A stretch of 28,340 nt of DNA from a virus, in IMG/VR virus record IMGVR_UViG_3300018815_000169, positions 1-28,340 of that record; one strand, given 5' to 3'. Every line of letters starts with the position of its first letter. Position 1 is the stretch's first letter. This document shows positions 1,357 to 5,361 of the stretch, piece after piece. The notes beneath the pieces were generated by a model. The model was given only the letters and a program-made list of their open reading frames with translations. It was not told the origin of the DNA and made no database searches. The translations under genes were made by a program, and so were the position numbers.

Positions 1357-1397
1357 GCGTCCTTAGCTCAGTTGGTTAGAGCATCTGACTTTTAATC
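1357..1397 (+). tRNA. tRNA-Lys(TTT), 5' half only, interrupted by prophage integration
   Basis: The 5' acceptor strand GCGTCCT (1357-1363), TA, D-stem GCTC/GAGC (1366-1369, 1379-1382) with the loop AGTTGGTTA, anticodon stem TCTGA (1384-1388) and loop CTTTTAA (1389-1395, anticodon TTT at 1391-1393) are all present. From 1398 the sequence no longer completes the anticodon stem (TCTGG instead of TCAGA). No T-arm or acceptor complement AGGACGC follows within 100 bases. The gene is therefore cut at the anticodon arm. The missing 3' half, or a phage-restored full copy, is expected at the far prophage end outside the window. Confidence 0.8.
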
Positions 1398-1398
1398 T
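1384..1398. other. Putative attL core in the tRNA-Lys anticodon arm
   Basis: The point where tRNA-Lys identity ends (around 1396-1400) coincides with the change from host genes to phage genes. The anticodon arm is a common crossover site for tyrosine-family integrases. The shared core is probably within TCTGACTTTTAATCT. No second copy of the core is in the window, so the exact ends and the integrase type are unconfirmed. Confidence 0.55.
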
Positions 1399-1447
1399 GG
1401 ACGTGTTGTTGATTTCGTTCGTGTTTTTGCACAAACCGATCTATTTT

Positions 1448-1511: not shown

Positions 1512-1539
1512 AAAACGCCCCCGGCCGAAACCGAGGGCG
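1512..1539 (-). terminator. Intrinsic terminator of the putative structured RNA
   Basis: On the minus strand the stem CGCCCTCGG / CCGGGGGCG (9 bp with one G-U pair) closes the loop TTTCGG and is followed by TTTTGC. It points away from the phage genes towards attL and would stop leftward transcription before the tRNA remnant. Confidence 0.6.
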
Positions 1540-1684
1540 CTTACTGGCCGGTCCACACCTCTGGACCACTGACTAAGGGCCGAAGCCCCGTGGCGGACTC
1601 GAACCGCCTCTTTCACCACGATCTCGGCCAACGAGCGGGAGTCGAACCCGCCTGCCTCTTAGCCCTGCCGGGCAAACTAAAGGA
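1512..1684 (-). ncRNA. Candidate structured non-coding RNA with two tRNA T-arm mimics
   Basis: Read on the minus strand, six hairpins follow one another. They are an arm with GCCC/GGGC at its core (1655-1683); a perfect 5-bp/7-nt T-arm, GCGGG-TTCGACT-CCCGC (1651-1635); a second T-arm, GGCGG-TTCGAGT-CCGCC (1608-1592); GGGC-TTCG-GCCC (1588-1577); GGTCCA-GAGGTG-TGGACC (1567-1550); and a 9-bp stem followed by TTTT (1539-1512), an intrinsic terminator. A -10-like CATAAT lies just upstream (about 1691-1686), but no good -35 was found. No complete tRNA cloverleaf could be built: the T-arms are about 43 bases apart and lack matching 5' acceptor strands. No known RNA family was recognised. A plus-strand reading frame crosses the region but looks like a shadow. 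Confidence 0.4.
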
Positions 1685-1983: not shown

Positions 1984-2071
1984 TCACACCCAAACTAAAT
2001 CTCGGCGGGGGGCTTGTACGACCGCTTCTGGCGCGGCATGGTGATCCAAATGGAGCGCCATGGAGCCCGCG

Positions 2072-2920
2072 ATGTCCCTCGACGCCTTTATTGAATGCCC
2101 CTCGCGACATATCGCGGATGATGAGAACCGCTGTACGGTTCACGATCAGACGGTTGTTCTGGGCGACTGCCTTGAAGGCCTGAAAGCGCTGTCGGACGGC
2201 TCGATTGACGTCGTGGTCACGTCCCCGCCCTACAATATCGGCATCTCATACCGGTCCTACGACGACCGCCGTCCCCGAGATGAATATCTCAAATGGTTGT
2301 CGGACATCGGCGCGCAGATCGCCCGCGTTCTGACGGATGGCGGCTCGTTCTTCCTGAACGTCGGCAGCACTAACGCTGACCCATGGGTTGCGCTGGACGT
2401 AGCGAACGCCTTCCGCGATCAGTTCGTCCTCCAGAATACGATTTCATGGATCAAGTCGGTCAGCATCGGTGACGACACCGTTGGCCACTTCAAGCCGATC
2501 ACCAGCCGCCGCTACATGAACAACAACCATGAGACCGTCTTCCACTTCACGAAGACGGGCGCGGTAGAAATCGACCGCCTCGCGATCGGCGTTCCGTTTA
2601 AGGACAAATCAAACATCGGCAGATGGGGCCACGCGCGTGACAAGCGCTGCGCCGGCAACGTCTGGTTCATCCCCTACAAGACGGTCACGTCAAAGGCCGA
2701 GAAGTTCAACCACCCCGCAGGCTTCCCTGTCGAGCTGGCCGAACGATGCATCAAGCTCCATGGGATCGAAGACGCCGTTGTGCTCGACCCCTTCCTCGGC
2801 GCCGGTTCAACGCTGGTCGCGGCGGCAAAACTAGGCTGCGAAGGCATCGGTTTTGAGATTGATCCGGTCTATGCGGCTGCGGCGGTGTCGCGACTTCGGC
2901 TGGTTGGCATCCAAGCTTAG
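2072..2920 (+). CDS. Beta-class DNA methyltransferase (adenine-N6 or cytosine-N4)
   Basis: The 282 aa enzyme should transfer a methyl group from S-adenosylmethionine to an exocyclic amino group in DNA. The catalytic motif IV TSPPYN (residues 50-55) comes before the SAM-binding motif I DPFLGAGS (239-246), the order that defines the beta class. The SPPY form is most common in N4-cytosine enzymes but also occurs in N6-adenine enzymes, so the base is not settled. The start at 2072 is chosen because GGAG lies 6 bases upstream; 2060 is an in-frame alternative. No restriction partner is adjacent, so it is an orphan enzyme that may protect phage DNA or alter gene expression. It is divergent in strand from the late genes and ends before the terminator at 3082. 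Confidence 0.88.
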   Translation: MSLDAFIECPSRHIADDENRCTVHDQTVVLGDCLEGLKALSDGSIDVVVTSPPYNIGISYRSYDDRRPRDEYLKWLSDIGAQIARVLTDGGSFFLNVGSTNADPWVALDVANAFRDQFVLQNTISWIKSVSIGDDTVGHFKPITSRRYMNNNHETVFHFTKTGAVEIDRLAIGVPFKDKSNIGRWGHARDKRCAGNVWFIPYKTVTSKAEKFNHPAGFPVELAERCIKLHGIEDAVVLDPFLGAGSTLVAAAKLGCEGIGFEIDPVYAAAAVSRLRLVGIQA

Positions 2921-4879: not shown

Positions 4880-5361
4880 CGAGAGCCCTCATAAGAAGAC
4901 CAGACCCGATCACCAGACATATGACGGACAGCACGAGCCAAAACATGATGAAGACCCGCGCTCCCCACAAAGATCAGTTGTCCGGTGAACGCCACATTCA
5001 GCAGTAGGATATACGTGTAGAGGTTGCCGCCGTTGATGTCAGAGGTTTTCCAGAGGAAAATGAAAGCGGCGTGCATGACGAGTTGAGCGACCAGCAAGGA
5101 CATGACGCCCAGCTTCCAAACCCGCCGGTTCCGCCTCCAGGCCCGCCAGACCATATAGGTGAACACAAGGTCCATTACGGGGAAGGCGCTGACGGCTTCC
5201 GGTAGCCCATAGAAGGCCACCAGAACGTTTGTCAGGCCATAGGAGACGCAGAGAAGCATCGCCACGCCGCTCGCATCAGCATAGCGTGGCTTTGCATCGT
5301 AGGCCGCCCAGGTGTTCAGCGCATAGACCGCCAAACAGGCGATTCCGAAGGCGATCATCAT
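4876..5361 (-). CDS. Multi-pass membrane protein of the lysis cassette
   Basis: The 161 aa product is largely hydrophobic with about four or five membrane segments (roughly residues 2-18, 30-50, 58-74, 85-103 and 113-135), and it has positive charges between segments (RAWRRNRRVWK). I do not recognise its family. Its place among holin-like genes suggests a role in membrane permeabilisation or its timing, but a superinfection-exclusion protein is equally possible. It overlaps the next gene by 4 bases and starts 2 bases after the preceding stop, so it belongs to the late operon. Confidence 0.65.
   Translation of the reverse strand: MMIAFGIACLAVYALNTWAAYDAKPRYADASGVAMLLCVSYGLTNVLVAFYGLPEAVSAFPVMDLVFTYMVWRAWRRNRRVWKLGVMSLLVAQLVMHAAFIFLWKTSDINGGNLYTYILLLNVAFTGQLIFVGSAGLHHVLARAVRHMSGDRVWSSYEGSR

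Follow-up and report, generated by a model that had tools for sequence, protein, structure and literature searches.

The stretch of viral DNA analysed in the present work (hereafter the window) comprises positions 1 to 28,340 of the IMG/VR virus record IMGVR_UViG_3300018815_000169, and its minus strand carries, at approximately positions 1680–1512, a putative stand-alone RNA locus, the core of which reads from 1657 to 1546. This locus lies about 100 bases from a fragment of a tRNA-Lys gene at attL and near the lysis genes, at the distal end of the late genes; the interval that separates it from the lysis genes contains a DNA methyltransferase gene in the opposite orientation (PHROG 67; 2060–2920, plus strand). 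The features of the locus, with the observations pertaining to each, are as follows:

1546–1657, minus strand: conserved RNA core of about 112 nt; matched end to end by the family model (107 bits), with compensatory changes
1635–1651, minus strand: T-arm 1, 5 bp, loop UUCGACU; 98–100% paired, with both-side changes at two pairs
1626–1629, minus strand: 5' strand (GGCC) of the closing helix; its partner is 1546–1549
1609–1625, minus strand: linker with a D-loop-like UGGU (1618–1615); 38 of 40 members have the GG, which a widened search pattern did not require
1592–1608, minus strand: T-arm 2, 5 bp, loop UUCGAGU; 95% paired, four of the five pairs changed on both sides
1577–1588, minus strand: P3 hairpin, GGGC-UUCG-GCCC; kept in class A with varying tetraloops, absent from class B
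1550–1567, minus strand: P4 hairpin, whose loop holds GGU (1559–1557); all five pairs changed on both sides in a 17-member alignment
1546–1549, minus strand: 3' strand (GGCC) of the closing helix; covarying partner of 1626–1629
1512–1539, minus strand: terminator, a 9-bp stem then UUUU; read in the sequence, with U-tailed hairpins close behind the core in relatives
1662–1673, minus strand: upstream hairpin (P0), GCCC-GGCA-GGGC; outside the conserved parts and not above chance in relatives
1357–1400, plus strand: 5' half of tRNA-Lys at attL, given for context and outside the RNA; partial Rfam tRNA match at 1366–1400 (20.3 bits)

Read from 1657 to 1546, the core consists of AGGCAG, T-arm 1 (GCGGG UUCGACU CCCGC), UCGUU, GGCC and GAGAUCGUGGUGAAAGA, followed by T-arm 2 (GGCGG UUCGAGU CCGCC), the P3 segment, P4 (GGUCC-A-GAGGUG-U-GGACC) and GGCC, and the 4-bp closing helix encloses T-arm 2, P3 and P4. 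The first-pass annotation of this DNA had described two perfect T-arms within a highly structured region, and both descriptions hold: GCGGG-TTCGACT-CCCGC (1651–1635) and GGCGG-TTCGAGT-CCGCC (1608–1592) are present on the minus strand with their starts and centres 43 bases apart, and the region folds better than dinucleotide shuffles of it (z = −3.45, with 0 of 200 equally good). The six hairpins that it counted can all be read (the others at 1673–1662, 1588–1577, 1567–1550 and 1539–1512), but the 5'-most of these is not conserved. P0 is found in 8 of 18 members vs. 31% of random stretches and, as this is not above chance, the core is taken to consist of five helices plus the terminator. The series does end in a terminator, as had been noted (a 9-bp hairpin then TTTT at 1539–1512), which a consensus terminator scanner misses because it contains too few T; terminators close behind the core are also found in Pseudomonas phage Touem01 (L004), L018, L023, L030, and L044. 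A scan for sigma-70 promoters found none, and a sigma-54-like site at approximately 1712–1696, which is good by eye yet at chance level (6% of random stretches) and not common to relatives, was rejected. No complete tRNA is present, again in agreement with the earlier reading, since within the window ARAGORN reports 0 tRNAs and no Rfam family is matched.

Our analyses have traced this RNA to approximately 40 loci in uncultured phages and prophages, in Pseudomonas phage Touem01, and in the jumbo phages OBP, SXP01, and Klebsiella LPKP23. Exact patterns taken from the window identified two IMG/VR contigs (L002 and L003) and a similarity search identified Touem01; both arms are present in all of them, and in these first members the stems of T-arm 2 differ yet stay paired (viz. 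GGCGG/CCGCC, CAGGG/CCCUG, and GCGCG/CGCGC). Further members were identified by means of widened patterns and then of a covariance model built from 17 sequences, which matches more divergent members with E = 1e-7 to 1e-13, and similarity searches from divergent members led to OBP, SXP01, LPKP23, and relatives of LPKP23. Many members were found through T-arm 1 plus the CTCGTTGG block, and the patterns also fixed the inner GG/CC of T-arm 1; hence, the invariance of these positions is partly imposed. A pattern consisting of the linker only (CGTTGGYCGAGRTCNGGTGA) identified 16 loci, in all of which except L075 T-arm 1 is present. Five contigs were matched by a pattern consisting of the 3' half only (P4 plus closing strand), and three of these (L065, L106, and L108) have the double-arm 5' half about 60 nt upstream; L106 and L108 are new members (E = 5e-15), and the other two contigs are coding matches.

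No member was found in phiKZ, EL, 201phi2-1, Lu11, T4, PAU, or phiR1-37, the match in phiKZ being one short arm. Among 385 genomes drawn from the class of a Sphingopyxis carrier, only the carrier itself has a member, which points to a phage element and not a host element. Other matches were rejected, viz. those of Mycobacterium phages to the window (terminator hairpin only), those of Rhizobium plasmids (T-arm-like stretches inside genes), and the pattern matches L007–L012, L105, and L107 (coding coincidences). At L003 1431–1523, ARAGORN calls a tRNA-Ser(cga) atop a member of the family, a false call of a type that may recur in automated annotation; current annotation misses the family or miscalls a member as tRNA-Ser. 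The phage contig L040, which contains a family member, also carries a type II hammerhead ribozyme (5234–5301, minus strand; Rfam, 53.3 bits, above gathering).

The fold of the RNA is supported by compensatory changes in both T-arms, the closing helix and P4. In an alignment of 17 members, standard pairs are present in 92.6% of the pair cells, 15 of the 23 pairs have changed on both sides, and the covariation score is 0.525, with shuffled controls scoring 0.146 and slid ones no higher than 0.114; for a two-T-arm alignment of 34 members the score is 0.592 vs. 0.127. The closing helix contains 17 doubly changed cells, with 4.0 expected from shuffling, and occurs as GGCC/GGCC, GGUC/GACC, GGCU/AGCC, GGUA/UACC, and GAUC/GAUC; its partner strand was set by the model alignment in class A and picked by eye in divergent members, a choice that favours pairing there. 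The comparison of homologues for covariation that the first-pass annotation had proposed thus revealed compensatory changes, and this covariation among related phages bears out its suggestion of a phage RNA that mimics T-arms. The energy minimum for the window alone is without the two T-arms, with the conserved fold 3.0 kcal/mol above it, and in several members the energy model likewise prefers other folds because T-arms 1 and 2 are complementary to each other; the T-arm fold therefore rests on comparison and not on energy. A coding explanation is ruled out by the core lengths, which range from 84 to 123 nt with indels. The signal at 1512–1684 is real and more than chance and, on the evidence of sequence comparison, the minus strand of the window very probably encodes a member of a conserved family of phage noncoding RNAs with a comparatively supported fold.

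Members of the family differ in layout. Class A (the window, Touem01, and others) consists of T-arm 1, the linker, T-arm 2, a P3 with a short loop, P4, and the closing strand. Class B (L039, L061, L068, L074, L046, L029, and L031) measures about 85–90 nt and has no P3, so that P4 directly follows T-arm 2. Class C includes OBP, SXP01, LPKP23, L038, L042, L065, L106, and others, and its order comprises a longer P3, UAACUC-UGGU-GAG, the closing strand, and an extra 3' domain in which a UUAAAC motif was seen by eye in several members. Five members of jumbo-phage type (L038, L042, L076, L077, and L078) have a common 3' domain after the closing strand, consisting of CCGGCGGCCAGCCGG, UUAAAC, a hairpin with GCGGAAUC, and GAGGGGC. 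Four other members (L020, L033, L034, and L062) contain a loop of GGCAG or GGUGGCA type in place of T-loop 2, often with loss of the GG of P4; this loop perhaps makes a different loop-loop contact, and the second elbow is hence not universal.

In tRNA, two D-loop residues, G18 and G19, touch the T-loop at positions 55 and 56. The present RNA contains a GG in the linker (38 of 40 members) and another in the loop of P4 in most members, and the latter is associated with the sequence of T-loop 2: where this is UUCRA, the GG of P4 is present in 26 of 26 members vs. 8 of 13 otherwise (Fisher p = 0.002, a value that overstates independence because the members are related). In tRNA numbering, OBP combines A at position 56 (for C) with U at 19 (for G) in unit 2, L106 combines G at 55 (for U) with A at 18 (for G) in unit 1, and SXP01 has the latter pair of changes in unit 2; in L025, U56 occurs with G19. 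We suggest that the linker GG docks in T-loop 1 and the P4 GG in T-loop 2, in the same manner as G18-G19 with positions 55 and 56 of tRNA. Since the co-changes are few events spotted after the fact, this model is held with some reserve; nonetheless, one RNA presenting two tRNA elbows is the probable arrangement, and it would represent a natural case of twin T-loop/D-loop packing outside tRNA.

The genomic setting of the family is related to tRNA genes in part. A recognised tRNA gene is found no more than 200 nt away from 11 of 38 members, vs. 3.4 for random positions in the same loci, and in L040, L044, L062, L065, and L067 the RNA starts at, or one base past, the end of a tRNA. Other members are located just upstream of terminase genes (L018, L020, L023, L030 (by sequence), and L036), and L044, like the window, has its RNA near lysis genes. 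The adjacency to attL, which the first-pass annotation had noted, is incidental, the RNAs of relatives being situated upstream of terminase genes, next to lysis genes, or within tRNA arrays.

The tRNA elbow is recognised by most tRNA-handling enzymes and by some tRNA-attacking ones. The anticodon arm is absent from all 39 parsed members, and an RNA with neither an anticodon arm nor a free acceptor end should be incapable of charging and decoding. We propose that the RNA may tie up elbow-recognising proteins or RNAs in trans (enzymes that process, modify, or attack tRNA); as a mimic or decoy co-expressed with phage tRNAs, it would thereby protect or tune the phage tRNA supply. Three reports tie phage tRNAs to escape from tRNA-cutting defences (PMC10264068, PMC11555353, PMC12409363), and this role, together with the co-location of the RNA with phage tRNAs, favours a trans-acting mimic or decoy. 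A trans-acting decoy role specifically is the function that we favour, and we put it forward tentatively. The sponge or tRNA-factor binding considered in the first-pass annotation is likewise a possibility. The account that best explains the observations as a whole, viz. a phage noncoding RNA family with two elbows that acts in trans as a tRNA mimic, is considered likely. The wider proposition, that widespread twin-elbow phage RNAs are uncleavable and unchargeable decoys shielding phage translation from tRNA-targeting immunity or host tRNA enzymes, is speculative and on present evidence rather improbable.

Several other explanations have to be weighed against a trans-acting mimic. The RNA could be a self-assembling or ribosome-associated structural RNA in the manner of GOLLD and ROOL, with its T-arm/D-loop contacts serving as internal architecture and not as mimicry; the setting is the same, phages and prophages often near tRNA islands (PMC12286853), and T-loop/GG contacts serve widely as a structural module in RNA. 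However, members of the family measure about 85–190 nt vs. about 800 nt for many GOLLD RNAs, they have no Rfam match, and their loops retain the tRNA T-arm consensus in full (UUCRANY, with closing GG/CC), which is beyond generic T-loop needs; we regard such a role as conceivable but somewhat unlikely. The tRNA-like arms could also attract RNase P or further enzymes of tRNA maturation, which would cleave phage transcripts, the RNA then being a processing or expression element with no function in trans. RNase P clamps the T-loop and acceptor of tRNA, and the RNA abuts tRNAs in the five loci named above; yet neither T-arm forms an acceptor stem, and the window, Touem01, and four others have their own terminator, most of these without an adjoining tRNA, and a processing element is for us an unlikely reading.

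Two further explanations would trace the RNA to tRNA genes themselves. The succession of a T-arm, CGUUGGYC and a 3' partner strand is that of a circularly permuted tRNA, and Brevundimonas phage vB_BpoS-Gurke has the same T-arm plus CGUUGGC that is closed on a 5' strand by UUCG and followed by a D-arm. That the RNA is a permuted tRNA or a tRNA pseudogene in decay is nevertheless very unlikely, given that it has no anticodon arm, no CCA and a second T-arm, and that compensatory changes are kept in distant phages; descent from a permuted tRNA is possible. The decayed tRNA array suggested in the first-pass annotation is contradicted by the compensatory changes that keep both stems and by the conservation of the linker, closing helix and 3' hairpin across distant phages, and decay as such is refuted by the covariation. 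A chance resemblance between hairpins of terminator type and tRNA remains of an integration beside tRNA-Lys would suit the proximity of the window RNA to the attL fragment, and the single T-arm matches L080 and L081 are indeed true tRNA remnants at att sites. This coincidence has a negligible probability: the full-length model matches reach E = 1e-23, covariation extends to phages lacking a tRNA-Lys integration, and the changes in the closing helix and the matches of the 3'-half pattern refute it as well.

With the two-elbow, trans-acting mimic as the preferred reading, the significance of the family lies in phage tRNA arrays, which have long been a puzzle: an elbow-only RNA in or near these arrays is a concrete candidate for an RNA that acts on tRNA biology, and it suggests a route by which phages may engage the tRNA-handling machinery of the cell. 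Our literature searches, in which subscription journals were thinly covered so that the outcome could change, found no phage tRNA-mimic RNA of the twin-elbow kind. The twin-elbow architecture appears to be new; mimicry of tRNA is a known kind, as are phage RNAs next to tRNA arrays.

None of the members tested matches a family in Rfam 15, the window has no match at gathering, and its RNA strand gives sub-threshold chance-like matches only at E up to 10. The family shares with tRNA (RF00005) the 5-bp T-arm stem, the UUCRANY loop (two here, covarying) and GG-containing D-like loops; unlike tRNA, it has two T-arms and no acceptor stem, anticodon arm or CCA, and it is not called by ARAGORN or Rfam except for the ARAGORN miscall in L003. 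The bacterial Y RNAs (YrlA, RF02553) are also tRNA mimics, with a T-arm and a D-arm in permuted order, and Y RNAs have been described in phages too (PMC12282133). YrlA has no match on the RNA strand at E up to 10, its sole sub-threshold match covering the tRNA-Lys fragment on the opposite strand. TROVE/Ro60 (PF05731) was found in 0 of 21 phage records searched, 19 of which carry the RNA (a control genome was positive), and no Ro60-binding stem joining the 5' and 3' ends occurs within the core, although the transcript may extend further. GOLLD and ROOL are phage or prophage RNAs, often near tRNA islands, for which a ribosome-linked or structural role is suspected (PMC12286853); the present RNA is likewise phage-encoded near tRNA islands (11 of 38 members have a tRNA within 200 nt, against an expected 3.4), but it is far smaller, has another structure, and does not match their Rfam models.

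The tRNA-like domain of tmRNA resembles the family in that it is a T-arm plus a D-loop without a stem, whereas the family RNA has no CCA end, no recognised tag reading frame, and no ARAGORN or Rfam call. A separate element in Caulobacter phage CcrColossus (L096, about 1620–1900) resembles a two-piece permuted tmRNA, with ...CGATTCCCCTCGCCTCCACCA, then GGGGGCGATCAGTTTCGATTGG, and a frame ending in NDNDAPVMEQLLAA-stop, and receives no ARAGORN call. In circularly permuted tRNA genes, as here, the T-arm precedes a helix strand whose partner is 3'; in the family, however, the interior is a second elbow unit and not a short linker, and there is no anticodon arm. The element of phage Gurke (L006 1490–1600; ON529850, about 158100–158190) consists of a T-arm, CGTTGGC-TTCG-GCCGGCG, and a D-arm-like GTAGCTCAGCTGGTAGAGC; it resembles a tRNA or tRNA-like RNA in circularly permuted form, with its acceptor stem closed by a UUCG loop, and is possibly kin to the 5' part of the twin-T-arm family. 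The double T-loop modules of the T-box and of RNase P, which bind the tRNA elbow, resemble the family in having two T-loops per RNA; their two T-loops interdigitate, whereas in the present family each T-loop would have its own GG partner and the tRNA consensus is kept.
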